DNA of 47,809 nt from Fusobacterium perfoetens. Lineage in GTDB: Bacteria; Fusobacteriota; Fusobacteriia; Fusobacteriales; Fusobacteriaceae. The stretch is taken from positions 1 through 47,809 of the forward strand of contig NZ_JADYTX010000015.1 in the NCBI RefSeq assembly GCF_021531475.1, given 5' to 3'. Under the pieces are notes generated by a model. That model searched no databases. It had not been told where the DNA came from and worked only from the letters and a program-made list of their open reading frames with translations. Position 1 is the first letter of the stretch, and every line of letters begins with the position of its first letter. Shown piece after piece: positions 27,650 through 47,809 of the stretch. A program made the position numbers and the translations under genes.

Positions 27650-27786
27650 TGCAGCCATCAAGAGAGACGGAGGGAGTGGCCCAAAGATGTCTCAGCAACC
27701 TACTTTTTGTGTGGTGCTAATTCCAACCAGATGGGGATTGTAGTTGTTAAAAAGCAAGTCCCTTTCTTATGAAAGGGATTTTTTAT
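27650..27786 (+). ncRNA. SAM-I (S-box) riboswitch with terminator
   Basis: The aptamer has the S-box consensus strings AAGAGAG, GGAGGGA-TGGCCC, CAGCAACC and GTGCTAATTCC in the right order between about 27658 and 27725. P1 is formed by CCATC near 27655 and GATGG near 27730. It is followed by a terminator, stem AGTCCCTTTC / GAAAGGGATT with loop TTAT and a T-run (27757-27786). High SAM should favour termination ahead of metK, whose product is SAM. Confidence 0.95.
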
Positions 27787-34052: not shown

Positions 34053-34081
34053 TAAGGAAATAAAATTTTTTGAGGTTTAGT

Positions 34082-36088
34082 ATGAAAAAATTCTTTCTGG
34101 TGTTTTTTTTGATGATAAATTCCTTTATTTCTCAAGGAATATCAATAGAAAGAACTCCCAAAAAAATAGTTTTAAAAAAAGAATATGTAGTGGCTTTTGA
34201 TCCTATGGAACCTCCTTTACAATTCGTAGAAGAGGGAGTAATAAAGGGATTTAATATAGAGCTTTTAAATCTTATAGGACAAAAAAACAATGTTAAATTT
34301 ATATATGTCCCTATGACTAAAAAAGAGTCTTATGAAAAGTTAGTAAATAAAAAAATAGATGCTGTAATTGGAATGAGATTTGATAAAGAGTATGAAAATA
34401 AAATTAGATATACAGATAGTATTGGAGAATATAGTGTCTGTATAGTGGCTCCTAAAACTAAGATAAAAAGTATAAAAGAGGGATTTGGTAATGAAGATTT
34501 TTTAGTAGGAGTAGAGAAAGGCTCATCAGAATATAACTATCTAAAAAATATGAAAAAAGTTAATTTTAATATTGTATTTGATCAAGAATCTCTTTTTAAA
34601 CTTTTGGAATTGGAAAGAGCAGATTTTGCGATCGGTGTACAAGAGATAGCTGAATATATAATGCTAGAAAAAAATCTATATAATAAGTATGAAATAATGA
34701 ATAGTTATACTGCTCCAGTAAGTTATTATATAGGAGTTTCTTATGAAAATGAAAGTTTAGTTAAAGTTATCAATGGAGAATTAAAAAATTTAAAAATAAA
34801 TGGTAGTTATGAAAATCTTTTTGTGAAATGGAATAAATCGGCAGAGCTTGAGAAAGAAAAGCAGATGTTACAAAATATAAAAACAATATCTTATGTTTCT
34901 TTGATTTTGGTTTTGATATTGCTAGTTATAAGTATTTGGAATATTCAATTAAAAAAAGTTGTAAAAGATAAAACTGCTAAACTTAGAAAAATAAATAAAG
35001 AACTTGAAGAAAAAATCATAGAGATAAGAAATAATAACGAGCTTAATAGCATTATTTGTGAAAGTAGTCCTAGATGTATCACTATTTTTGATAGAGATAG
35101 AAAGATAACTTTTATGAATAAAAATTCTATAAATCTTTTTAATGCAGGAGATAACTTCAAAGGAAAAGATGCTTATTATTATCCCATAATGGAAAAAATT
35201 ATAGGAAATGGAGTTTTTGAAAAAACTGTTTTTGAGAATGAGGCTCATATAACAAGAGAGCTTAAAATAAATCTGAATGGAAGAGAGGAGTATTTTAGAT
35301 ATACCCTTTATCCACTTTTAGATTATCAAAAAAATAATATTGGGGCTTTTCTTACTATGGAAGAGTGTACTAAGGAGAAACTTTTAAGAGAAAAATCTCT
35401 AAAAAAAGAGAAAGATACAGCTATTGCCACTATAATTGCTGGGATTGCTCACGAGATAAGAAATCCAATGACAGCTATAAAAACATATATTGAACTTTTG
35501 CCACTAAAAAAAGATAATGAAAAATTTAGAGAACAGATAGTGACAATAGTTCCCAAAGAAGTAGAAAGAGTAAATAGATTGATAGAAAATCTTATAGATT
35601 ATATAAAACCAAAGGCTAATTCCATATCTGATATAAATTTATATGATATTATAAATTCATCAATGTTACTTCTTAAGCCTACATTTGATAAAAATTCTAT
35701 AAAAATAGAACTTGATATAGATACCACTCTTTCTATCAAAGGGGATCCAGCTCAAATAAAGCAAGTTATGATAAATATTCTTTTGAACTCAATAGATGCT
35801 ATAAATGAGAAAAAAGAAAAAATAGATGAGAAAGAGGAGTATTTTATCAAGATAAAAAGTTATGCTTTTGAGGAGCATAGAATAATTGAGATAACAGACA
35901 ATGGAATTGGAATGACAGAAAAAGAATTGAATAATATATATGAAGTGTTTTATACAACTAAAGCAAAGGGAACGGGACTTGGGTTACCTTTGACAAAACA
36001 ACTTGTAGAAAAAAACAGTGGAAATCTATTTGTTGAAAGTGAAAAAAACAAGTTTACAAAATTTACTATAATTTTTGAGGTGATATAG
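34082..36088 (+). CDS. Sensor histidine kinase with periplasmic-binding-type input domain
   Basis: A 668-residue membrane kinase. A signal or first membrane segment (MKKFFLVFFLMINSFI) leads to a SBP_bac_3-like sensor domain (about 30-255, with VVAFDPMEPPLQFVEEGVIK), a membrane helix (about 270-290), a coiled linker, a PAS-like domain (about 325-425), the H-box GIAHEIRNPMTAIKTY, and an ATPase domain with NILLNSIDAI, DNGIGMTEKEL and TTKAKGTGLGLPLTK. It would sense a small solute outside and phosphorylate the adjacent regulator. The ATG at 34082 has GAGG 6 bases before it; the upstream TTG is not used. Confidence 0.92.
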   Translation: MKKFFLVFFLMINSFISQGISIERTPKKIVLKKEYVVAFDPMEPPLQFVEEGVIKGFNIELLNLIGQKNNVKFIYVPMTKKESYEKLVNKKIDAVIGMRFDKEYENKIRYTDSIGEYSVCIVAPKTKIKSIKEGFGNEDFLVGVEKGSSEYNYLKNMKKVNFNIVFDQESLFKLLELERADFAIGVQEIAEYIMLEKNLYNKYEIMNSYTAPVSYYIGVSYENESLVKVINGELKNLKINGSYENLFVKWNKSAELEKEKQMLQNIKTISYVSLILVLILLVISIWNIQLKKVVKDKTAKLRKINKELEEKIIEIRNNNELNSIICESSPRCITIFDRDRKITFMNKNSINLFNAGDNFKGKDAYYYPIMEKIIGNGVFEKTVFENEAHITRELKINLNGREEYFRYTLYPLLDYQKNNIGAFLTMEECTKEKLLREKSLKKEKDTAIATIIAGIAHEIRNPMTAIKTYIELLPLKKDNEKFREQIVTIVPKEVERVNRLIENLIDYIKPKANSISDINLYDIINSSMLLLKPTFDKNSIKIELDIDTTLSIKGDPAQIKQVMINILLNSIDAINEKKEKIDEKEEYFIKIKSYAFEEHRIIEITDNGIGMTEKELNNIYEVFYTTKAKGTGLGLPLTKQLVEKNSGNLFVESEKNKFTKFTIIFEVI

Positions 36089-37453
36089 GTGGAAAAAATA
36101 ATTATAATAGATGATGAGATTTCAATTTGTTCATCTCTTACTTTTGCATTGGAAGATAGCTATGATGTTCAAGCTACTACTGATCCGAGCTTGGGAATAG
36201 AGATAATAAAAAAAGAAAATATTAATCTTGTACTTCTTGATCTAAAAATAGGAGATGTAGATGGTCTAGAGGTTTTAGAAGAAATAAAAAAAATAAATAA
36301 AGATATAGTTGTGATAATTATGACAGCATATGGTTCTATAATGTCATCAGTAGAGGCAATGAAAAAAGGTGCTTATACATATTTGACTAAACCTATGAAT
36401 TTAGAAGAACTTTATATGATAGTAAAAAAGGCTCTAGAGTTTCAAAAAATGAATGAAAAGATAGAGTATCTTAGCAAGGAACTTCAAAATAAATATCAAT
36501 TTGAGGGAATAATTGGAAAAACAGAGGGAATGAAAAGGATATTTTCTTTGATTGATAAGCTAAAAGATGTTGATACAGGAGTGATGATAACAGGAGAAAG
36601 TGGAACAGGAAAAGAGTTAGTTGCGAGAGCCATACATTTTTCAGGAAAAAGAAAAGATAATAAATTTGTAGAAGTAAATTGTGCAGCTATTCCAGAGGGG
36701 TTACTTGAGGAGGAGTTTTTTGGTCATAAAAAAGGAACTTTTACCAATGCTGTAAGTGACAAAATAGGAAAATTTCAATATGCTAATAAGGGGACAATAT
36801 TTCTTGATGAGATAGGAGATATGTCTTTAAGTCTTCAATCAAAGCTTTTAAGAGTGTTACAAGAAAAATCTTTTATTCCTTTGGGGGCTAATGAGCCAAT
36901 AGAAACTGATGTAAGAATTATTGCTGCTACTAATAGAGATCTTAAAAAAATGGTAGAAGAGGGAACATTTAGAAGAGATTTATACTTCAGACTTAATATA
37001 GTAGAAATAAAAATACCACCTCTTAGAGAGAGAAAACAAGATTTACCACTGCTTTTTAAACATTTTATAGAAATTTATAATAAAGAGATGGGTAAAAATA
37101 TAAAAGGTTTAGATAGAAGATGTGAAAAAATATTGATGAACTATGATTATCCTGGAAATGTCAGAGAGCTTTCAAATATAATTGAAGGTGGAGTTCTTTT
37201 ATCGCAAAACGATACAATAGAGCTAGATTGTTTGCCAAGCCAGTTAACAGATATGGGAATTGGAACGATTAACACTACAGATAAAATTATTTTAGAAGGA
37301 AAAGATCTTACAGAGATGACATTAAAAGAGGCTGAAAAAGTTTTAATAGAAGTTTGTCTAAGAAAAAATAACGGACATAAAAGACAGACAGCTGAGATGT
37401 TGGGGATAAGCGAGAGAGGATTAAGGAATAAAATCAATGAATATGAACTATAA
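36089..37453 (+). CDS. NtrC-family sigma-54-type response regulator
   Basis: A 454-residue protein. The receiver domain (1-120) has the phospho-acceptor Asp51 (LVLLDLKIG) and Lys101. The AAA+ domain (about 138-375) has Walker A GESGTGKE (169-176). The sigma-54 contact loop, usually GAFTGA, is GTFTNA here (216-221). A Fis-type HTH (about 415-452, with RQTAEMLGISERGL) ends it. Translation starts at GTG directly after the kinase stop, with GAGGTG just upstream. It should activate a sigma-54 promoter, but I see none near. It overlaps the TAXI gene by 17 bases. Confidence 0.92.
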   Translation: MEKIIIIDDEISICSSLTFALEDSYDVQATTDPSLGIEIIKKENINLVLLDLKIGDVDGLEVLEEIKKINKDIVVIIMTAYGSIMSSVEAMKKGAYTYLTKPMNLEELYMIVKKALEFQKMNEKIEYLSKELQNKYQFEGIIGKTEGMKRIFSLIDKLKDVDTGVMITGESGTGKELVARAIHFSGKRKDNKFVEVNCAAIPEGLLEEEFFGHKKGTFTNAVSDKIGKFQYANKGTIFLDEIGDMSLSLQSKLLRVLQEKSFIPLGANEPIETDVRIIAATNRDLKKMVEEGTFRRDLYFRLNIVEIKIPPLRERKQDLPLLFKHFIEIYNKEMGKNIKGLDRRCEKILMNYDYPGNVRELSNIIEGGVLLSQNDTIELDCLPSQLTDMGIGTINTTDKIILEGKDLTEMTLKEAEKVLIEVCLRKNNGHKRQTAEMLGISERGLRNKINEYEL

Positions 37454-38396
37454 AAATATATTTTTAAAAGTGGTAGTATTTCTGTGTTTTCTATCTATGT
37501 CCTTTGGACAAGATTATAAAGATGTATTTATAAGTATAGGAACGGGACCCATTGATGGAGTGTTTTATCCTGCTGGGACAGCTATATCAGAGATAATAAA
37601 AAAAGTAGGATATAACTCCTCTGCCTGCTCAACTGCTGGGTCTGGAGAAAATATAGACCTTATTATTGATAAAAAAATAGAGATGGCAATAGCGATGTCT
37701 GACACTGTTTATCAAGCTTATTATGGAGTTGGAGCCTATAAAGGAAAAGGACCAATAAAAAATTTAAATTGTATAACGGGACTTCATCCAAATTATACTC
37801 AGATAGTTACTTTGAGAGATTCCAATGTAAAAACTTTTAAAGATTTAAAAGGAAAAAGGATAGGAATAGGGATATATAACTCAGGAGTTGAGTTAAATGC
37901 AAGACTTTTATATGAGGCTCATGATATGAAATATTCTGATAGTGAGATAAGTTATGGTACCCCTGGAGAACTTATAGAGCAATTAAAAAACCATATTTTA
38001 GATGCAATATTTTTAACGAACACAGTACCAACGGATATTATTTATAATCTTTCATTAGAAATGCCGATAAACTTTGTAGCTATTGAAGATGAAGGAATAG
38101 AAAAATTAAGAGAAAAATGGCCTTTTTTCTTTAAGGAAAAAATTACTAAGGAAGATTATAATATAGAAAAGGATATTCAAACTGTGGCAGTACAAAATCT
38201 TTTGTTAGTGGATAGAAATCTTCCTGAGGGGATAGTTTATGATATTACAAAAGCTTTCTTTGAAAATATAGAAGAAGTAAGATGTTCTAATCTTGGGATA
38301 AGAAGAAATGTATCCATTGAAAATTATGATAAAAATGTTGATATTCCATTTCATAAAGGTGCTTTAAAATATTATAAGGACAAGGGTATAAGGTAG
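37437..38396 (+). CDS. TAXI-family TRAP substrate-binding protein
   Basis: A 319-residue secreted protein with a signal peptide (about 1-24, cleaved after SMSFG) and the TAXI fold: SIGTGPIDGVFYPAGTAISE, ACSTAGSGENIDLI, DLKGKRIGIGIYNSG and ATDIIYNLSLEM-like region near residue 200. TAXI receptors usually feed a fused DctQM permease, but none follows here. Being in the same transcript as the kinase, it may instead be a sensing partner. It starts inside the regulator gene, so it is co-translated. A terminator follows at 38424. Confidence 0.88.
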   Translation: MNMNYKNIFLKVVVFLCFLSMSFGQDYKDVFISIGTGPIDGVFYPAGTAISEIIKKVGYNSSACSTAGSGENIDLIIDKKIEMAIAMSDTVYQAYYGVGAYKGKGPIKNLNCITGLHPNYTQIVTLRDSNVKTFKDLKGKRIGIGIYNSGVELNARLLYEAHDMKYSDSEISYGTPGELIEQLKNHILDAIFLTNTVPTDIIYNLSLEMPINFVAIEDEGIEKLREKWPFFFKEKITKEDYNIEKDIQTVAVQNLLLVDRNLPEGIVYDITKAFFENIEEVRCSNLGIRRNVSIENYDKNVDIPFHKGALKYYKDKGIR

Positions 38397-38423
38397 GATA
38401 TAAAAAATTAATTAGTTGTAGAT

Positions 38424-38457
38424 AAAAAAAGCTGACTTTCAAAAGCCAGCTTTTTAT
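38424..38457. terminator. Bidirectional terminator between TAXI gene and gltS
   Basis: AGCTG-A-CTT / AAG-C-CAGCT hairpin flanked by runs of A and T on the two sides, at the convergent ends of the TAXI gene and gltS. Confidence 0.85.
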
Positions 38458-38491
38458 TTTATACTTAATCAATTAACTTTTCAATTAACTA

Positions 38492-39709
38492 TTATTTGAA
38501 CATATTCATGAAGAATGTGATGATAACAGCGTTGAAGAAGTCGATGAATAATGATCCAACTAATGGAATTACGAAGAAAGCTTTAACAGATGGTCCGTTA
38601 GCTTTAGTGAATGATTCCATGTTAGCCATTGCGTTAGGAGTAGCTCCCATTCCAAATCCACAGTGTCCACAAGCTATAACAGCAGCGTCGTAGTCTCTTC
38701 CCATGATATTGAATGTTACGAAGTAAGCATAGATAGCCATGATTACTGTTTGAACTAATAAGATTACGATTAATGGTAATGCTAGAGCAGCAAGTTCCCA
38801 TAATTTCATTGACATTAATGCCATTGCTAAGAATATAGAAAGTGCGATATTTCCAAGCATTGATATTTCAGTTAATGGAAGTTTTTTCTTAGACATATCC
38901 ATAACGTTTCTGAATATAGCAGCAACTAACATTGGTCCTAAGTAAACTGGAATTGCAACACCTAATGATTTTGCAAATGGAGGAATCCAAGCTCCACATC
39001 CCATTGCTAAACCGATAGCAACAACAGCTTTGAATAAACTTTCTTCACTAACTTTTTCTTCGAAAACGTCAAGGTCTCCTTCGAAAACTTCATTGTCTAT
39101 TTCTCTCTTAGTTTGATGAGGTTTTTCGTCTTTTTTAGCAACTAAACCAAATTTTTCTATAAGTTTTTTAGCGATTGGTCCACCGATTAAACATCCAGCA
39201 ACAAGTCCAAATGTAGCAGAAGCCATAGCAACTGACATTGCTCCAACTGCTCCACCTTGTTCCATTAATGGTCCGAAAGCTCCAGAAGTTCCGTGTCCAC
39301 CTGTTAATGGTACTGATCCAGCAGCAAGTCCGATATATGGATGTAATCCAAATATTTTAGCTAGAGATACACCAACTGAGTTTTGGATAACAACTAATAT
39401 GATAGCAGCTAATAAGAATAATACAACCCCGATTCCACCTTTTTTAAGAAGTTCGAAACTTGCAAGGTATCCAACTGTAGTATAGAAAGCTATCATTAAG
39501 AAATCTTTTAATACTCCGTCAAAAGCGAAAGAGAAAGCACCAGTTTCATGTCCTATTAATAATACGATAGAGAAGATAACTCCACCAATAACTGGTCCAG
39601 GAATAAAGAATCTTTCAAGAACTGGAACTCTTTTTTTAACAGCAGCTCCGACTAAAAGAATAACGATTGCTATGGCAAGTGTTTCAGCCATATTAAAAGT
39701 GAAAGTCAT
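38492..39709 (-). CDS. gltS: Sodium/glutamate symporter
   Basis: A 405-residue Na+/glutamate carrier of the ESS family, with 10-12 membrane helices, the two pore-loop motifs SVPLTGGHGTSGAFGPL and CGHCGFGMGATPNAMANM typical of GltS, and a cytosolic acidic stretch (about 200-225) in the middle. It would import the substrate for the glutamate-fermentation operon on the other side of the IclR gene. AGGGGGTATT precedes the ATG. It is transcribed divergently from the IclR gene with a 499-base gap. Confidence 0.95.
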   Translation of the reverse strand: MTFTFNMAETLAIAIVILLVGAAVKKRVPVLERFFIPGPVIGGVIFSIVLLIGHETGAFSFAFDGVLKDFLMIAFYTTVGYLASFELLKKGGIGVVLFLLAAIILVVIQNSVGVSLAKIFGLHPYIGLAAGSVPLTGGHGTSGAFGPLMEQGGAVGAMSVAMASATFGLVAGCLIGGPIAKKLIEKFGLVAKKDEKPHQTKREIDNEVFEGDLDVFEEKVSEESLFKAVVAIGLAMGCGAWIPPFAKSLGVAIPVYLGPMLVAAIFRNVMDMSKKKLPLTEISMLGNIALSIFLAMALMSMKLWELAALALPLIVILLVQTVIMAIYAYFVTFNIMGRDYDAAVIACGHCGFGMGATPNAMANMESFTKANGPSVKAFFVIPLVGSLFIDFFNAVIITFFMNMFK

Positions 39710-40113
39710 AAATAATACCCCCTGTATAATTTAATGAATACATCCCATGTGGGTTAGAAATTTTTTGGCGATAATTAAGCCTTTCAAAATTCAGTTATGC
39801 TATAATTACATAATTTGAGTTCTGAAACTGTAATTAAAGTATCAAAAAAACTCTAAAATGTATTTGATAATCTAATATTATCACATAAAATATCAAAATA
39901 AAAATTCATTTATTTTATACTATAAATATTTTTTATATATGTTATATATTTTTTTAAATAAAAATGTAAAGAAAATACTAAATAAATGAAAAAATAAGAT
40001 GTTATATAAAAAATAAAGACATATTTTTGATAAAAAAATATATAGAGATAGAGAAAATAAATTAAAAAAAATTTTACTTGAATTTATTACAAAAAAATAA
40101 TAAATATAAAAAG

Positions 40114-40142
40114 TTGACTTATAAAAAAAAATAGGGGATAAT
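40114..40142 (+). promoter_or_regulatory. Promoter of IclR-type gene
   Basis: TTGACT (40114-40119), 17-base spacer and GATAAT (40137-40142). Confidence 0.65.
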
Positions 40143-40170
40143 GATATAAAAGGGTATTGTAATTTTTTTA

Positions 40171-40208
40171 AAGGAGGAAATTAATATATACTATATTAAT
40201 GAAGAAAA
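40171..40208 (+). promoter_or_regulatory. Shine-Dalgarno and hairpin spacer before the IclR-type start
   Basis: AAGGAGG (40171-40177) is too far from the ATG at 40209 in linear terms, but a perfect inverted repeat, ATTAATATA-TAC-TATATTAAT (40180-40200), lies between. If folded, it leaves 10 unpaired bases between the site and the start. A stop codon in frame at 40200 excludes a longer protein. Confidence 0.55.
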
Positions 40209-40958
40209 ATGATACAAAGTTTATTAAGAGCAATGGAATTACTAGAAATTTTAAAGAGAGCAAACGATACTTGTTCCATAGCACAATTAGCTGAAGAACT
40301 GGAGCTACCACCAAGTACAGTTCATAGAATATTAAAGACATTGTGCTCGACAATGTATGTTGTGAAAGATGAGAAATCCCATGAATATAGATTGGGACCA
40401 GCACTTATTCCTCTCGGGACATCAGCTTCTAAACACGTACATCTTCAAAGTGTAGCATATGATGTGTTAAAAAAGATAGCTTTAGAAACGGGAGAGGATA
40501 CTTTCTTGATTATTCCTGTAGAGTATAAAGGTATAGTTTTAGAGAGGGTTGATGGAAAAAGAACTTTAAAACTAGTTGAAGAATTTGGAGATGAGTTGTA
40601 TCTTCACTATGGTGCTATAAGAAAAGCGATACTTGCATTTCAATCAGACGAGTTTATAAATGACTACATAAAAAAAGTAATAGAAAAAGGAAAAACTTCT
40701 CTTAGAATAACACCTTTAGAGCTTAGAGAAAAACTAAAGAGAATAAGAGAAGAGGGAATATCTACATCGTCTGGAGATTATGCCAAAGGGACTATTGGAA
40801 TAGGAGCTCCTATAAGAAATAGTTCAGGAAATGTTATAGCTTCTGTTGGAATAGTAGTTGCAAAACCTAAAATCTTCTCAGAGGAGAGAGTAGAAAATCT
40901 TAAAAATATTATAAGAAAAGCAGGAGAAGATATTTCTAAGGGTATAGGATATTTTTAA
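40209..40958 (+). CDS. IclR-family transcriptional regulator
   Basis: A 249-residue protein with an N-terminal winged helix (about 1-60: AMELLEILKRANDTCSIAQL and ELPPSTVHRILKTL) and a GAF-like IclR effector domain (about 75-245; TSSGDYAKGTIGIGAPIRNS). It lies between gltS and the gcd operon, so glutamate metabolism is the likely target, with a metabolite such as 2-hydroxyglutarate, glutaconate or glutamate as a possible effector (inferred). The start is fixed by an in-frame stop at 40200. Repressor or activator cannot be decided from sequence. Confidence 0.9.
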   Translation: MIQSLLRAMELLEILKRANDTCSIAQLAEELELPPSTVHRILKTLCSTMYVVKDEKSHEYRLGPALIPLGTSASKHVHLQSVAYDVLKKIALETGEDTFLIIPVEYKGIVLERVDGKRTLKLVEEFGDELYLHYGAIRKAILAFQSDEFINDYIKKVIEKGKTSLRITPLELREKLKRIREEGISTSSGDYAKGTIGIGAPIRNSSGNVIASVGIVVAKPKIFSEERVENLKNIIRKAGEDISKGIGYF

Positions 40959-41099
40959 GATATGCTTTACATATATATGATAAATATATTTTAAAATGTT
41001 ATACTATTTAAATTATAAATTATGTAAGCTTTTAGAATAAAAAATGTTAAAAAAAAACTTAAAACAAGAGAATAAATAAGAAAATATACAAAAAATTTA

Positions 41100-41128
41100 T
41101 TGACTAAATAGAAATTTTGTATTATAAT
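41100..41128 (+). promoter_or_regulatory. Promoter of glutaconyl-CoA decarboxylase operon
   Basis: TTGACT (41100-41105), 17-base spacer and TATAAT (41123-41128), near the consensus, as expected for a highly expressed catabolic operon. Confidence 0.85.
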
Positions 41129-41149
41129 TAATTTGAAAAAATGAAATAC

Positions 41150-41166
41150 ATTCCATAATGTGGAAT
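41150..41166. promoter_or_regulatory. IclR-type operator candidate
   Basis: ATTCCA-TAATG-TGGAAT is a perfect 6-base inverted repeat with a 5-base spacer. It lies about 22 bases after the -10, in the early transcribed region, where a bound repressor would block elongation. Its TTCC...GGAA form resembles known IclR-family sites. Confidence 0.6.
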
Positions 41167-41194
41167 ATAATAACATAAGGAGGTGTGAGAAGAG

Positions 41195-41485
41195 ATGTTT
41201 ACTGGTAGTACTATGGGAATATTTGAATCATTAATAGTTTCTGCTTTAGGATTGTCTGTTGTTTTTACAGCTCTAGCGGTATTGGCTATTGCTATCATTA
41301 TTTTCTCTAAAATATTCAGTTGTTTAGGAATTTCTGAACAAAAACCAGCACCAAAAGTAGTAACTAAGCCTGCAGAAGAGGACTTAAGTGAAGAATATTG
41401 TGCTGTGTTAATATCAGCTGTTTCAGAAGAATTACGTTCTGTAAGAGGTGAATATAGAGTAAAATCTATAAGAGAAATTAAATAG
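41195..41485 (+). CDS. gcdD: Glutaconyl-CoA decarboxylase small membrane subunit (delta, OadG type)
   Basis: A 96-residue protein with one membrane helix (about 16-38, LSVVFTALAVLAIAIIIFS), a Pro/Lys-rich hinge, and an acidic C-terminal region (AEEDLSEEYCAVLISAVSEE). This is the OadG/GcdD pattern, a small anchor that assembles the sodium-pump decarboxylase. AAGGAGG lies 11 bases before the ATG. It is the first gene of the operon. Assignment rests on neighbours as much as on sequence, because the family is short and variable. Confidence 0.85.
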   Translation: MFTGSTMGIFESLIVSALGLSVVFTALAVLAIAIIIFSKIFSCLGISEQKPAPKVVTKPAEEDLSEEYCAVLISAVSEELRSVRGEYRVKSIREIK

Positions 41486-41584
41486 TGTTTTAAAAGGGTT
41501 TTTATTTTATTAAAAGGTATTGAGTTTATTAAAAAATTAAAATTTAAAAAATTATGAAAAATTGAAAGGACGGTTTTTAAGAGA

Positions 41585-42028
41585 ATGAAGTATATTGCCA
41601 ATGTAAATGGAAAAAGATATGAAATAGAATTAGAGAGAGTTGAAGATTACAGACCAATGACTCGTGAGGAAATAGCAGCACCAGTAACAGCATCAGCACC
41701 TATCGTAGCAGCACCTGCAGCTCCAGTAGCACCAACACCAGTAGCAGCACCTGCACCAGTTGCTCCAGCTCCAGTAGCAGCTCCAGCACCTACAGCAGCA
41801 CCAGTTTCAGCAGGAGCATCTACAGTAGTAGCTCCACTTCCAGGAACAATCTTAGACGTTAAAGTTGCACCAGGACAAGCTGTAAAAACTGGAGAAATAG
41901 TAATCATAATGGAAGCTATGAAAATGGAAACAGAAGTTGTAGCAGCGGCTGATGGGGTAGTAGATTCTATCCTAGTTAAAAAAGGTGACGCAGTAGATAC
42001 AGATGCAACTCTAATTACATTGAAATAA
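41585..42028 (+). CDS. gcdC: Glutaconyl-CoA decarboxylase biotin carrier (gamma)
   Basis: A 147-residue biotinyl protein. After a short N-terminal strand (1-25), an Ala/Pro-rich flexible linker runs from about 32 to 78 with repeated PVAAPAP-like units. The biotinyl domain (about 80-147) has the attachment motif EAMKMETEV, with Lys113 carrying biotin. It shuttles the carboxyl group from the alpha to the beta subunit. The linker length matches the swinging arm seen in Acidaminococcus and other GcdC proteins. Confidence 0.95.
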   Translation: MKYIANVNGKRYEIELERVEDYRPMTREEIAAPVTASAPIVAAPAAPVAPTPVAAPAPVAPAPVAAPAPTAAPVSAGASTVVAPLPGTILDVKVAPGQAVKTGEIVIIMEAMKMETEVVAAADGVVDSILVKKGDAVDTDATLITLK

Positions 42029-42041
42029 GGAGGAGTTGTAA

Positions 42042-43184
42042 ATGAATTTTATAGACGTATTTAAAGGAATTTTATTAGAGTCAGGGTTCATAGGAGCAAC
42101 TTGGCAAGAGCTAGTAATGATACTAATATCATTCGTATTAGTATATATGGCTGTAGTAAAAAAATATGAGCCATTATTACTATTACCTATAGCTTTCGGT
42201 ATGTTCTTAGCTAACTTACCTTTAGCTGGTCTTATGAAAGAAGCAGAACCTTGGTACTCATCAGGAGTATTAAGAATAATCTATAGTGGAGTAAAAAGTA
42301 GTTTATTCCCTTGTTTAATATTTACTTGTGTTGGATCAATGACAGACTTCGGTCCATTAATTGCTAACCCAGTAAGTTTACTATTAGGAGCAGCAGCTCA
42401 ATTTGGTATCTATGTAGCATTTACATTAGCTAATGCAACTGGATTATTTACAGTTGGAGAAGCAGCAGCTATCGGTATCATCGGAGGAGCTGACGGACCT
42501 ACAGCTATTTATATAGCTAACAACCTAGCTCCAGACTTAGTAGCACCAATCGCAGTTGCAGCTTACTCATACATGGCGTTAATCCCTATGATTCAACCAC
42601 CTATCATGAGAGCTTTAACAACTGAAAAAGAAAGAAAAATTAAAATGGGACAATTAAGAAAAGTTTCTAAAGTAGAAAAAGTAGTTTTCCCTATATTCGT
42701 AACATTATTCTGTGCTTTATTACTTCCATCAACAGCACCATTAATCGGTATGTTAATGTATGGTAACTTATTAAAAGAATCAGGAGTAGTTGCTCGTTTA
42801 TCTGATACAGCTCAAAACGCTTTATGTAACTTAGTAACATTATTACTAGGACTTGCAGTTGGAGCTACAGCAAACGGAACTATCTTCTTAAGAACTCAAA
42901 CTTTAGCAATAGTTGGAATGGGACTTTTAGCTTTCTGTTTCGCAACAGTTGGAGGAATCTTATTAGGAAAAGTTTTATGCTTAATAACTGGTGGAAAAAT
43001 CAACCCACTTATTGGATCAGCTGGGGTATCAGCAGTTCCAATGGCAGCTCGTGTTTCTCAAGTTGAGGGAGCAAAAGCAAATCCTACTAACTTCCTATTA
43101 ATGCACGCTATGGGACCTAACGTTGCAGGAGTTATTGGGTCAGCAGTTGCAGCTGGATTCTTTATGATGGTATTTGGAAAATAA
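42042..43184 (+). CDS. gcdB: Glutaconyl-CoA decarboxylase beta subunit (Na+ pump)
   Basis: A 380-residue integral membrane protein with about 9-11 helices. It decarboxylates carboxybiotin and exports Na+. Conserved features are GSMTDFGPLIANP, EAAAIGIIGGADGPTAIYI with the acidic residues of the ion path, VAAYSYMALIPMIQPPIM, and a C-terminal LIGSAGVSAVPMAARVSQ then LLMHAMGPNVAGVIGS. AGGAGG precedes the ATG. It closes the membrane half of the complex; gcdA lies three genes downstream. Confidence 0.95.
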   Translation: MNFIDVFKGILLESGFIGATWQELVMILISFVLVYMAVVKKYEPLLLLPIAFGMFLANLPLAGLMKEAEPWYSSGVLRIIYSGVKSSLFPCLIFTCVGSMTDFGPLIANPVSLLLGAAAQFGIYVAFTLANATGLFTVGEAAAIGIIGGADGPTAIYIANNLAPDLVAPIAVAAYSYMALIPMIQPPIMRALTTEKERKIKMGQLRKVSKVEKVVFPIFVTLFCALLLPSTAPLIGMLMYGNLLKESGVVARLSDTAQNALCNLVTLLLGLAVGATANGTIFLRTQTLAIVGMGLLAFCFATVGGILLGKVLCLITGGKINPLIGSAGVSAVPMAARVSQVEGAKANPTNFLLMHAMGPNVAGVIGSAVAAGFFMMVFGK

Positions 43185-43246
43185 TAAAATCTTAAAAATT
43201 ATAACATTTGAATAAAAACAAAATAAAATTTAAGGAGGTTTTTGAC

Positions 43247-44209
43247 GTGGAAAGTAAAATAATGTCTTTAAAAGACGCAGTAGCAAAATATGTCAAAAAT
43301 GGAGATCATATGGTTATAGGTGGATTCACTACTAACAGAAAACCATATGCACTAGTTTATGAAATTCTAAGACAAGGATTCACAGATTTTGTAGGAGAAT
43401 CAGGACCTGCAGGTGGAGATTGGGATATGTTAATAGGAGCTGGAAGAGTAAAAGCTTATATTAACTGCTATACAGCTAACTCAGGAGTAACTAACGTTTC
43501 TAGACGTTTCAGAAAATGGTATGAAGAAGGAAAACTTAACATGGAAGACTACTCACAAGACGTTATCATGTTAATGTTACACGCTGCATCTCTAGGATTA
43601 CCATATTTACCAGTTCGTTTAATGATGGGAACTGACTTAGTAAACAAATGGGGAATCTCTAAAGAAGTTAGAAAAACAATAGACAAAATACCAGATGACA
43701 AATTTGTTTATGTAGAAAACCCATTCAAACCAGGTGAAAAAGTAGTAGCTGTTCCAGTACCTGAAATAGACTTAGCTATAATTCACGTACAAAAAGCATC
43801 TCCAGATGGAACTTGTTCAATAATTGGTGACGAATTCCACGACGTAGACATCGCTATCGCAGCAAAACGTTGTATAGTAACTTGTGAACAAGTAGTAAGT
43901 AACGAAGAAATTCGTTTAGATCCTACTAAAAACTCAATAGCTGGATTCTGTGTTGACGCAGTTGTACATGCACCATACGGAGCTCACCCAACTCAATGTT
44001 ACGGATTCTATGACTATGACAACGCTTTCTTAAAATTATATGACGTTGCAAGTAAAACTCAAGAAGACTTTGAAGCATTCTTAAAAGAATGGGTATATGA
44101 CGTACCAACTCACGAAGCTTATTTAAATAAATTAGGAGCATCTCGTTTAATCAATTTAAATATAGTTCCTGGATTAGGATATGCTAAAAAAGCTGAGGAG
44201 GTAAAATAG
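43247..44209 (+). CDS. gctA: Glutaconate CoA-transferase subunit A
   Basis: A 320-residue subunit, the same length as in Acidaminococcus fermentans. It has the CoA-transferase family I features MVIGGFTTNRKPYALV, GESGPAGGDWDML, RLMMGTDLV and IHVQKASPDGTCS. With GctB it moves CoA from acetyl-CoA to 2-hydroxyglutarate. The start is a GTG at 43247, fixed by AAGGAGG 8 bases before; earlier in-frame codons would lie ahead of this site. It is followed 2 bases later by gctB. Confidence 0.92.
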   Translation: MESKIMSLKDAVAKYVKNGDHMVIGGFTTNRKPYALVYEILRQGFTDFVGESGPAGGDWDMLIGAGRVKAYINCYTANSGVTNVSRRFRKWYEEGKLNMEDYSQDVIMLMLHAASLGLPYLPVRLMMGTDLVNKWGISKEVRKTIDKIPDDKFVYVENPFKPGEKVVAVPVPEIDLAIIHVQKASPDGTCSIIGDEFHDVDIAIAAKRCIVTCEQVVSNEEIRLDPTKNSIAGFCVDAVVHAPYGAHPTQCYGFYDYDNAFLKLYDVASKTQEDFEAFLKEWVYDVPTHEAYLNKLGASRLINLNIVPGLGYAKKAEEVK

Positions 44210-44211
44210 AA

Positions 44212-45015
44212 ATGGCAGATTACACTAATTATACAAATAAAGAAATGCAAGCAGTTACAATTGCAAAACAAATTAAAAATGGACAAATAGTTATAGTTGG
44301 AACTGGACTTCCATTAATCGGAGCCTCTGTTGCTAAAAAAGTATTTGCACCTGAATGTAATATCATAGTTGAAAGTGGACTTATGGACTGTAACCCAATC
44401 GAAGTACCAAGAAGTGTTGGAGACAACAGATTCATGGCTCACTGTTCAGTACAATGGCCAAACGTTCGTTTCATAGGATTCGAAGCTAACGAATGGTTAC
44501 ACGATGAAACAAGATTAGTAGCTTTCATCGGTGGAGCTCAAATAGACCCATACGGAAACGTTAACTCAACTTCAATAGGAGATTACAACCATCCAAAAAC
44601 TAGATTCACTGGTTCAGGAGGAGCTAACGGAATCGCTACTTATGCTAACACTATCATAATGATGCAACACGAAAAAAGAAGATTTATAAATAAAGTAGAC
44701 TACATCACATCTCCAGGATGGATGGACGGACCTGGTGGTCGTGAAAAAGTTGGATTACCTGGAAACAGAGGACCAATAATGGTTGTTACTGACAGAGGAA
44801 TCTTAAAATTCGATGAAGAAACTAAGAGAATGTATCTAGCTGGATACTATCCAACTTCATCTCCAGAAGATGTATTAGAAAACACTGGATTTGATATTGA
44901 CGTATCAAGAGCTGTATTATTAGAAGCTCCATCTCCAGAAGTTATCAAAATGATAAGAGAAGAAATTGACCCAGGTCAAGCATTCATCAAAGTTCCAGTA
45001 GAAGAAGCAAAATAG
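44212..45015 (+). CDS. gctB: Glutaconate CoA-transferase subunit B
   Basis: A 267-residue subunit. The catalytic glutamate, Glu54 in the NIIVESGLMDCNP motif, has the same number as in Acidaminococcus and forms the glutamyl-CoA intermediate. Also present are GLPLIGASVAKK, IDPYGNVNSTSIGDY and GSGGANGIAT. It pairs with GctA. GAGGAGG lies shortly before the ATG, within the 3' end of gctA. Confidence 0.95.
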   Translation: MADYTNYTNKEMQAVTIAKQIKNGQIVIVGTGLPLIGASVAKKVFAPECNIIVESGLMDCNPIEVPRSVGDNRFMAHCSVQWPNVRFIGFEANEWLHDETRLVAFIGGAQIDPYGNVNSTSIGDYNHPKTRFTGSGGANGIATYANTIIMMQHEKRRFINKVDYITSPGWMDGPGGREKVGLPGNRGPIMVVTDRGILKFDEETKRMYLAGYYPTSSPEDVLENTGFDIDVSRAVLLEAPSPEVIKMIREEIDPGQAFIKVPVEEAK

Positions 45016-45055
45016 TCTTTTATATCTAAAAGTAGACAAAATCAGGAGGAAATAA

Positions 45056-46816
45056 ATGAATAATTATTCAATGCCAAAATATTTTCAAAATATGCCTACA
45101 CTAGGAAAACCTCTAGCTGCAGCTAATAACGAAAATATGGAAGCTTTAAAAGCAATTGAAGCTGATATACACGAAGCAATAAAAACAGTACAAGCTGAAG
45201 GACGTACTGATGAATCTTTAAACGAATCAGGACAAATGACAGCTTTACAAAGAATAGCAGCATTAGTAGATAAAGGAACTTGGTGTCCATTAAATACTAT
45301 CTACAACCCAGAAGGAAATGACAATGGGTCTACTGGTATAGTAAAAGGATTAGGAAGAATCAACGGTAAATGGGCAGTAATCGTTGCATCTGACAATAAA
45401 AAATTAGCAGGAGCTTGGGTTGCAGGACAAGCTGACAACTTATTAAGAGCATCTGATACAGCTAAAACATTAAGAATTCCTTTAGTTTATGTACTAAACT
45501 GTAGTGGAGTTAAATTCACAGAACAAGAAAAAGTATATCCTAACAGAAGAGGTGGAGGAACTCCATTCTTCAGAAACGCTGAATTACAAAAATTAGGAAT
45601 TCCAGTAATCGTTGGAATTTACGGAACAAACCCAGCTGGTGGAGGATACCACAGTATCAGTCCAACTCTAATCGTTGCTCATAGAAAAGCTAACATGGCT
45701 GTTGGAGGAGCAGGAATCGTTGGAGGAATGAACCCTAAAGGACATATCGAAATACCTGATGCTGAACAAATCATCACTAACACAATAAACGCTGGAAAAG
45801 TAAACCCTCCTGGATCAGTTTCTATCCACTTCAATGAAACTGGATTTATGAGAGAAGTTTACCAAGAAGAATTAGGTGTAATAGAAGGAATCAAAAAATA
45901 TGTTGATATGTTACCAGCATATGATTTACAATTCTTCAGAGTTGACGAGCCAAGAGCTCCTAAATACTCAGCTGAAGACCTATATTCAATAGTTCCATTA
46001 AATCAAAAGAAAACTTACGATATCTATGAAGTTATCGCACGTTTATTTGACAATTCAGAATTCACTGAATACAAAAAAGGATTTGGACCTGAAATCGTAA
46101 CAGGTATGGCAAAAGTAAACGGATTATTAGTAGGAGTTGTAGCTAACGTACAAGGACTATTAATGAAATATCCTGAATATAGAGAAAATGCAATAGGAAT
46201 CGGAGGAAAATTATACCGTCAAGGTTTAATTAAAATGAACGAATTTGTAACTCTTTGTGGAAGAGACAAATTACCTATCGTATGGATCCAAGACACATCT
46301 GGTATCGATGTAGGTGACGAAGCTGAAAAGGCAGAATTACTAGGATTAGGACAATCTTTAATCTACTCAATTGAAAATTCAGACATACCTCAATTTGAAG
46401 TTACATTAAGAAAAGGAAGTGCGGCAGCTCACTATGTATTAGGAGGACCTCAAGGAAACAACACTAACGTATTCTCAATAGGTACTGCAGCAACTGAAAT
46501 GTATGTTATGAATGGAGAAACAGCTGCAATAGCAATGTACTCTAGAAAATTAGTTAAAGATAAAAAAGCTGGAAAAGATCTACAACCTACAGTAGATAAA
46601 ATGAACGAATTAATCAAAAAATTCTATGATGAATCAAGACCAAAAGCTTGTGCAGTAACAGGTATGGTAGATGAAATCGTTGATATGACAATGATTCGTC
46701 CATATATCGAAGCATTCGTAGAATCAGCTTACCAAAATCCAAAAGGAATCTGTGCATTCCATCAAATGTTACTTCCAAGATCAACTCGTGATTTTGATAG
46801 TTACACAAAAAGATAA
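45056..46816 (+). CDS. gcdA: Glutaconyl-CoA decarboxylase alpha subunit (carboxyltransferase)
   Basis: A 586-residue soluble carboxyltransferase that takes CO2 from glutaconyl-CoA onto biotin, giving crotonyl-CoA. The crotonase-like domains carry GTNPAGGGYHSISPTL and GGAGIVGGMNPKGHIE in the N-terminal half, and IQDTSGIDVGDEAEKAEL and AHYVLGGPQGNNTNVFS in the C-terminal half. The length equals that of the Acidaminococcus enzyme. CAGGAGGAA precedes the ATG. It forms a complex with GcdB, C and D. Confidence 0.95.
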   Translation: MNNYSMPKYFQNMPTLGKPLAAANNENMEALKAIEADIHEAIKTVQAEGRTDESLNESGQMTALQRIAALVDKGTWCPLNTIYNPEGNDNGSTGIVKGLGRINGKWAVIVASDNKKLAGAWVAGQADNLLRASDTAKTLRIPLVYVLNCSGVKFTEQEKVYPNRRGGGTPFFRNAELQKLGIPVIVGIYGTNPAGGGYHSISPTLIVAHRKANMAVGGAGIVGGMNPKGHIEIPDAEQIITNTINAGKVNPPGSVSIHFNETGFMREVYQEELGVIEGIKKYVDMLPAYDLQFFRVDEPRAPKYSAEDLYSIVPLNQKKTYDIYEVIARLFDNSEFTEYKKGFGPEIVTGMAKVNGLLVGVVANVQGLLMKYPEYRENAIGIGGKLYRQGLIKMNEFVTLCGRDKLPIVWIQDTSGIDVGDEAEKAELLGLGQSLIYSIENSDIPQFEVTLRKGSAAAHYVLGGPQGNNTNVFSIGTAATEMYVMNGETAAIAMYSRKLVKDKKAGKDLQPTVDKMNELIKKFYDESRPKACAVTGMVDEIVDMTMIRPYIEAFVESAYQNPKGICAFHQMLLPRSTRDFDSYTKR

Positions 46817-46840
46817 TCTATTAAATAATTAAAAAATATT

Positions 46841-46876
46841 AACAATATTTCACTTCGAAAGAGGTGAAATATTGTT
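46841..46876. other. Perfect 16-bp hairpin between gcdA and hgdC
   Basis: Arms of 16 bases, AACAATATTTCACTTC and GAGGTGAAATATTGTT, pair throughout (one G-T) around a GAAA tetraloop. There is no T-run after it, so an mRNA-stability, processing or weak termination role is likelier than a classical terminator. Confidence 0.7.
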
Positions 46877-46967
46877 GTATTATTAGATTTAAGTTTTTAA
46901 TATATATAAACTTAGATTATTATATAAAAAATAAATTTTTTTAAGTGCAAGGAAACGGAGGATTTTA

Positions 46968-47783
46968 ATGTACACAATGGGAATTGATATAGGTTCTACT
47001 GCATCTAAAAGTGTTATACTTAAAGATGGGAAAGAAATTATCAGTAAAGCCGTTATTAATGTAGGAGCAGGTACTAGTGGACCAGGTAGAGTTATTGAAG
47101 AAGTAACTAAACAAGCAGGTCTAAAAAGAGAAGATATAGATTGTGTATTAGCAACAGGATATGGTCGTAACTCTCTTTTAGAATGGGCAGATTACCAAAT
47201 GAGTGAACTTAGTTGTCACGCAAAAGGAGCTAACTATCTATTTCCTAATGTAAAAACAGTTATAGATATTGGTGGTCAAGATGCTAAAGTACTTAAAGTT
47301 GGACCTAAAGGAGTTCTTATAAATTTTGTAATGAACGACAAATGTGCAGCTGGTACTGGAAGATTCTTAGACGTTATGGCTAAAGTATTAGAAGTAAAAG
47401 TTAGTGACTTACAAACTTTATCTGCAGAATCAACAAAAGATGTAAGTATAAGTTCTACTTGTACAGTTTTTGCTGAATCAGAAGTTATTTCCCAATTAGC
47501 AAAAGGAACTGATAAAAGAGATATCATAAGAGGAATCCATCGTTCAGTAGCAGGAAGAGTTGGAGGACTTGCAAAAAGAGTAGGGTTAGAAGACGACTTA
47601 GTTATGACAGGTGGTGTGGCCCTAAATGGTGGAGTTGTTTTAGCTATGTCTGAAGAATTAGGAAAAGAAGTTAAAACTTCACCTTTAACTCAATATACAG
47701 GAGCAATAGGAGCAGCATTATTTGCATATCAAAAAAGTGATATGATACCCATAAAGGACACATATATATTATCAACAAATTAA
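46968..47783 (+). CDS. hgdC: Activator of 2-hydroxyglutaryl-CoA dehydratase (archerase)
   Basis: A 271-residue ASKHA-fold ATPase that passes a high-energy electron to the HgdAB dehydratase. The N-terminus has [14 protein letters not shown], and the [4Fe-4S] cluster cysteines shared between two subunits are Cys126 ([15 protein letters not shown]) and Cys165 ([12 protein letters not shown]), close to 127 and 166 in Acidaminococcus. [13 protein letters not shown] is the second ATP-binding loop. GGAGGAT precedes the ATG. The dehydratase genes hgdA and hgdB should follow just outside the window. Confidence 0.95.
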
Positions 47784-47809
47784 AAAATATAAGAAAGTTG
47801 GTAATGTAT

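Follow-up and report, generated by a model that had tools for sequence, protein, structure and literature searches.

Gene content of the window and the element before gcdD

The window, which is the whole stretch of DNA analysed, comprises the complete 47,809-nucleotide contig C15 of a 2.0-Mb Fusobacterium perfoetens genome (G000). Its right-hand part carries a glutamate-fermentation operon, and the features of this region are listed in Table 1. The gcd, gct and hgd gene names were assigned from Pfam families and gene order. The contig ends at 47,809, after hgdC, and in a relative (L073) the operon continues with two genes of the HGD-D family, taken to be hgdA and hgdB. The same gene families and neighbourhood (gcd, gct, hgd) are known from glutamate fermentation by the 2-hydroxyglutarate pathway. 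Fermentation of glutamate to butyrate is a main energy route of amino-acid-fermenting anaerobes, including the fusobacteria.

Table 1. Features of the window and of related loci
Feature	Position	Strand	Remarks
Histidine kinase with family-3 solute-binding domain	34070-36088
Response regulator with sigma-54-activator-type domain	36089-37453
TAXI-type binding protein	37437-38396		gene overlaps the response-regulator gene
gltS	38492-39709	minus
iclR, IclR-family regulator	40209-40958	+	249 aa; presumed binder; PF09339 and PF01614 above cut-off
gcd-operon promoter TTGACT-17-TATAAT	41100-41128	+	11/12 consensus bases; -35 TTGACT 41100-41105, 17 nt, -10 TATAAT 41123-41128
Candidate operator box 1, TGAAAT	41142-41147	+	conserved; 2-nt spacing to box 2
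Candidate operator box 2, ATTCCA	41150-41155	+
Candidate operator box 3, TGGAAT	41161-41166	+	after 5-nt spacer TAATG
gcdD, OAD gamma-type subunit	41195-41485	+	first gene of the operon; PF04277 41.7 bits
gcdC, gcdB, gctA, gctB, gcdA, hgdC	41585-47783	+	remaining operon genes within the window
Conserved dehydrogenase-GltS leader	L068:2405-2535, L069:7280-7402, L080:11240-11412, L082:10595-10762		other genomes

As the earlier note had stated, an IclR gene lies directly upstream of the operon. An iclR orthologue also directly precedes gcdD in five other gcd-bearing genomes of the genus (six in all); in L098, L100 and L101 it faces the hgdB end, and likewise in L102, with hdh-gltS2 in between. 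The protein belongs to the IclR family (PF09339, 49.5 bits against a cut-off of 22; PF01614, 94.5 bits against 24), and its recognition helix is LPPSTVHR (residues 33-40). The closest solved relative by sequence is 1mkm (E 3.6e-28), and the nearest named relative is 87% identical, in a Fusobacterium sp. MAG (L097). Like the PcaR/PcaU/PobR proteins, it matches TIGR02431 over the full length; unlike them, it stays far below the cut-off of that model (102.6 bits against 284.75) and is thus outside the subfamily.

The promoter is the best among 40 promoter-like sites in 38500-47809; since this number is at chance level (39.2 in shuffles), its weight comes from conservation. The earlier note had described a near-consensus promoter followed by the palindrome ATTCCA-TAATG-TGGAAT, and both were found exactly, the palindrome at 41150-41166. 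The site is, however, not a single palindrome: a TGAAAT half-site in front of it had been overlooked, and the extended element reads TGAAAT-2-ATTCCA-5-TGGAAT (41142-41166). In the genus alignment its form is TGRAAY-2-RTTCCA-5-TGGAAT with the spacer YAATR. Palindromes with up to two mismatches showed no clear excess in the window (7 versus 4.73 expected; 18/100 shuffles reached 7). Loose palindromes are common in AT-rich DNA, and therefore the case rests on conservation. The exact palindrome occurs at one place in the 2.0-Mb genome and at 19 more with one mismatch (reversed-pattern control, 3 places); the degenerate 25-mer, with at most one mismatch, has a single place there, 41142-41166.

Several neighbouring features were also noted. 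The kinase, response-regulator and TAXI genes face gltS (34070-39709), and among the ORFs of at least 90 aa from 34000 on none was recognised as a TRAP membrane gene. The usual sigma-54-contact loop is GAFTGA; in the response regulator it reads GTFTNA, and so this protein may not work with sigma-54. With up to two mismatches, the window has 14 matches to a sigma-54 promoter, no clear excess over the 10.1 expected (11/100 shuffles), and the gltS-iclR spacer has none of them. A 17-pair hairpin with a T-rich tail between gcdA and hgdC (46840-46877) is possibly an internal terminator or processing site, and a SAM riboswitch (RF00162, 61.6 bits) is found at 27652-27737. The cluster of kinase, regulator, TAXI and gltS genes is reminiscent of the TAXI-GltS transporter of PMC12344293.

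Conservation of the element and its occurrence with the IclR clade

Six gcd-bearing genomes of the genus were aligned over the iclR-gcdD spacer. Invariant columns make up 18/25 of the element, 11/12 of the -35 and -10 hexamers and 35/189 of the rest, so that conservation in this spacer is concentrated in the element and the promoter hexamers. The search for RTTCCAYAATRTGGAAT (spacer specified, at most one mismatch) gave exactly one place, before gcdD, in each of these six genomes, and no place in G035, a genus genome without a gcdD match. Among 61 family genomes the same search gave 8 places before gcdD and 9 in 7 other genomes; this background is at chance level, because the reversed control also gave 9. 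The spacing between boxes 1 and 2 is 2 nt in 19/19 elements as aligned. Box 1 is degenerate in G050 and in the two paralogue sites described below. Three boxes of alternating direction are conserved between genomes, as expected of a three-box site.

Co-occurrence of the element with the IclR clade was examined in 25 gcd- or gct-bearing genomes, 16 with the clade (9 Fusobacteriaceae, 7 Clostridia and relatives) and 9 without. The 61 Fusobacteriaceae genomes were searched with GcdD and IclR and gave 17 GcdD-like matches; G041 was dropped before the comparison (weak match, 38% over 59 residues with one internal stop). The gcd operons of the other 16 were taken from tblastn or from the window itself, 9 with the IclR clade and 7 without it. 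In the Anaerophilus class (Bacillota; Clostridia in the NCBI taxonomy; a sample of 391 genomes), IclR was found in 5 genomes (E <= 1e-50), all of which are among the 7 with gctB (E <= 1e-110); the remaining two, G434 and G310, gave no IclR match at E <= 1e-3. The named collection contributed two more genomes with this IclR, both MAGs: G062 (Tissierellia) and G063 (Ruminococcaceae). Contig ends interrupt the gcd operons of G033, G050, G051, G062 and G063.

The scan used a matrix built solely from the six genus elements, leaving out the genome's own, and covered at most 300 nt ahead of gcdD (ahead of gctA in G310, where no gcdD was found beside it); each genome was compared with 400 shuffles. 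The element beat all shuffles in 14 of the 16 IclR-clade genomes, including 8 of the 10 outside the training genus; its score was reached by 1/400 in G061 and by 8/400 in G050. None of the nine genomes without the clade stood out (30-298 of the 400 shuffles equalled or exceeded the best score). The Clostridia genomes G271, G292, G380 and G398, which were fetched after the motif had been fixed, have the element in 4/4. In G061 the contig leaves just 107 nt of upstream DNA, and next to the site is an inverted repeat, which may be an assembly artefact. The element is absent before gcdD in G017 and G037, which have only a paralogous IclR clade. A regular expression for the element was composed after the sites had been seen, and the matrix test is the one to rely on. 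Since the genomes are partly related and so not independent, the raw numbers overstate the contrast, but it appears separately inside and outside the Fusobacteriaceae. Absence of the palindrome from relatives carrying both genes, which the earlier note had named as evidence against its proposal, was not what was seen, two of the 16 gcdD sites (G061, G050) being weak.

The element was also sought before iclR (150 nt, 102 nt in G062; 16 genomes, 1000 shuffles). With the three-box matrix, a site at <=2/1000 shuffles was found in 7/16 genomes (G049, G051, G063, G292, G398, G380 and G271). The site of G050 is borderline (56/1000 three-box, 99/1000 two-box), and none was found in the six genomes of the window genus, G061 or G062. 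By eye, box 3 extends into the -10 in G292, G398, G380 and G271, which argues for a site read at the DNA level.

The earlier note had joined gltS to the gcd/gct/hgd operon under one regulator. This part was not borne out, since the best scores in the gltS-iclR spacer were at chance in 6/6 genomes (56 to 190 of 200 shuffles). The best match in this spacer of the window is ATGAATACATCCCATGTGGGTTAGA, from 39734, and it is not among the best matches of the other five genomes.

With at most one mismatch, the degenerate 25-mer gave 17 rows in 13 of the 61 genomes (reversed control, 6). Outside G001, G012 and G028, 8 rows stand before gcdD and 2 before TAXI genes (G049, G050); in G051, 2 rows that overlap each other precede a TRAP gene, named by eye as DctP-type. 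Two more, within an ORF read as urocanate hydratase (G031) and within an ORF in G002, were taken as chance. In G050 the gcd genes are preceded by a TAXI gene, a TRAP gene of DctM type and two more genes, whose copies in G049 are LamB/YcsF and CT_C_D proteins; these TAXI, TRAP, LamB/YcsF and CT_C_D genes are located at L077:3442-9134 (G050) and L189:534-6189 (G049). The TAXI match of G050 has a good element, TGAAATGCGTTCCGCATTGTGGAAT, 131 nt upstream, and that of G049 a second element 73 nt upstream; none was found before TAXI in G051. The weak gcdD site of G050 may be explained by the element before the upstream TAXI gene. Given these sites, the regulon in the genus of these genomes seems to include an uptake system, which suggests that uptake of glutamate-like compounds is co-regulated with gcd in G049 and G050. 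Binding of glutamate by TAXI proteins is reported in PMC12344293, as is one system that binds 2-oxoglutarate and 2-hydroxyglutarate.

Operator type, alternative explanations and mode of control

In the operator classification of Suvorova and Gelfand (PMC8222616), the group 1 operators of the IclR family include the subgroup WTTYCRYW3RYGRAAW. The earlier note had likened the palindrome to IclR-family operators, and this holds: ATTCCATAATGTGGAAT, read against that consensus, shows the WTT-11-AAW form, with boxes 2 and 3 fitting letter by letter. Group 2 is given there as TGRAACAN1-2TGTTYCA, with 3-4 nt between the TGRAAC arms; unlike this consensus, boxes 1 and 2 (TGAAAT-AC-ATTCCA) are separated by 2 nt and therefore do not form a group 2 operator. 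The pair of boxes 1 and 2 and the iclR-promoter sites of G049 and G051 nevertheless have the TGGAA...TTCCA arrangement of the E. coli IclR and KdgR group 2 sites, from which they differ in the 2-nt centre and, before gcdD, in the third box. Three-box sites are reported there for 32 orthologous groups. Like the three-box operators of PcaU, PobR and HmgR, the element has alternating boxes, and its recognition would be by an IclR-family HTH; the pathway is glutamate fermentation here and aromatic catabolism there. From the three-box-like layout and the 2-nt pair, the element was classed as a three-box IclR operator with a tighter first pair, and gene control at this locus would thereby add a case to a familiar kind.

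These comparisons of sequence suggest that 41142-41166 is the three-box operator of the neighbouring IclR protein, and the glutamate-fermentation operon is very likely under its control. Of the control that the earlier note had proposed, the operon part is well supported by comparison and the gltS part is not supported: the element tracks the IclR clade, fits the published consensus and precedes iclR itself in 7/16 genomes.

It is improbable that another IclR-family protein, or a different regulator, binds the element and that it merely co-occurs with the neighbouring iclR. G000 does have two more, distant IclR-family matches (21-22% identical); however, the presence of the element tracks this IclR clade in 25 genomes, and G026 and G027, with gcd and other distant IclR matches, have no element. 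Moreover, a changed palindrome accompanies the changed recognition helix of the paralogues.

Still less probable is a role of the palindrome as a 5'-leader RNA hairpin that controls stability or translation. The palindrome lies inside the likely transcript and boxes 2 and 3 can pair; 90.7% of the aligned cells are standard pairs, falling to 55.6% or less when the partner is shifted by 1-3 columns, and the symmetric change in the paralogue operator would keep the pairing. Nevertheless, the fold is unremarkable (-7.1 kcal/mol, z -1.09, 27/200 shuffles as good), and neither paired cells (143/500) nor covariation (71/500) exceed shuffles, as a structured RNA would. Pair 12-22 is broken in 4/18 distinct rows and pairs 9-25 and 14-20 in 3 each, there is no Rfam match at the palindrome, and the iclR-promoter copies of G292, G398, G380 and G271 lie mostly outside the transcript, by eye. 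RNA pairing between boxes 1 and 2 was tried and rejected (83.3% paired cells, 108/500 shuffles as good). A chance palindrome, or a sequence kept for some other reason, would agree with the lack of a clear excess of loose palindromes in the window, but is hardly credible given the same place and spacing across genera and phyla and the outcome of the matrix test.

For the predicted IclR operator, a mechanism can be outlined if transcription is taken to start near 41135, 7 nt past the -10. The IclR protein, as a dimer or tetramer, would occupy roughly positions +8 to +32 of the gcd transcript and block the strong promoter or early elongation, and the gcd-gct-hgd genes would stay off until an effector releases it. 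This effector, bound by the IclR_C domain, might be a hydroxyglutarate-route metabolite: glutamate, 2-oxoglutarate, 2-hydroxyglutarate or glutaconate. Repression is proposed because the element lies downstream of the -10; box 1 begins 11-16 nt past a -10 in 12 of 15 gcdD elements (best promoter in range taken), and among these 15 no promoter at the usual distance was clear for the two elements of G062 and that of G063. The IclR proteins PcaU and PobR can also activate, and therefore the sign of control is not certain. A more extended reading is tentative at best: that the cross-phylum IclR clade is a dedicated glutamate-fermentation regulator, whose three-box operator with a tight 2-nt pair permits two dimer arrangements and thereby two states of one site, which might be, for example, tight repression and partial release.

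No report of a transcription factor for 2-hydroxyglutarate-pathway glutamate fermentation was found in the open-licence papers searched, nor of an IclR regulator of glutamate fermentation in these papers, including passages of PMC9403272 and of the article proper of PMC8222616. A specific protein and a precise, conserved candidate site make control of the pathway directly testable.

A paralogous IclR clade and look-alike sites

Two extra IclR genes in G034 and G031 are located around genes for a D-2-hydroxyacid dehydrogenase (PF02826) and a GltS-type transporter, and one paralogous IclR gene in G017 and G037 is divergent from the same dehydrogenase-GltS pair. The solved relatives of the dehydrogenase include D-lactate dehydrogenase 3kb6 (E 6.5e-17) and (R)-2-hydroxyglutarate dehydrogenase 1xdw (E 2.7e-12). 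It was found in 6/61 family genomes, these four together with G050 and G051, which carry the gcd-clade IclR.

The palindrome of the paralogues, RTTCTA-N5-TAGAAC, stands before the neighbouring operon in G034 and G031. The sites upstream of the dehydrogenase are GTTCTACAATGTAGAAC (G034) and GTTCTATAATGTAGAAC (G031) and, by eye, GTTCTATAATACAGAAT (G017) and the weaker GTTTTATAATAAAAAAC (G037). The recognition helix is PK[ST]TA[HY]G in 6/6 paralogues and PPS[ST]xHR in 16/16 proteins of the gcd clade. Two helix-residue changes thus seem to go with a symmetrically changed palindrome, a correlation in few lineages rather than proof. IclR residues 35 and 40 correspond by eye to Arg47 and Arg52 of TtgV, which are critical or contacting residues in Table 5 of PMC8222616. 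G292, of the gcd clade, has T at the changed base of box 2 as well. The paired changes of helix and half-site make these clades a clean case and a natural test of the recognition code by which IclR proteins read DNA.

In the dehydrogenase-GltS leader, the stretch TCCCA...GCAAAATGGGATAA..TATGATA.AATCATACC... is conserved in four genomes, with TCCCA/TGGGA and ATGAT/ATCAT as likely stems. It matched no Rfam family at the gathering score, matches below being at chance level, and it is possibly a structured RNA of no recognised family.

Look-alikes of the 2-nt-spaced pair were also noted elsewhere. One such dyad, TGAAACGCGTTTCA, lies about 200 nt before another IclR-family match (G033:C41:174-187), and a run of alternating boxes with a 2-nt-spaced look-alike precedes the DctP-type TRAP gene of G051 (L190:2161-2193). 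The 2-nt pair may be common among fusobacterial IclR sites.
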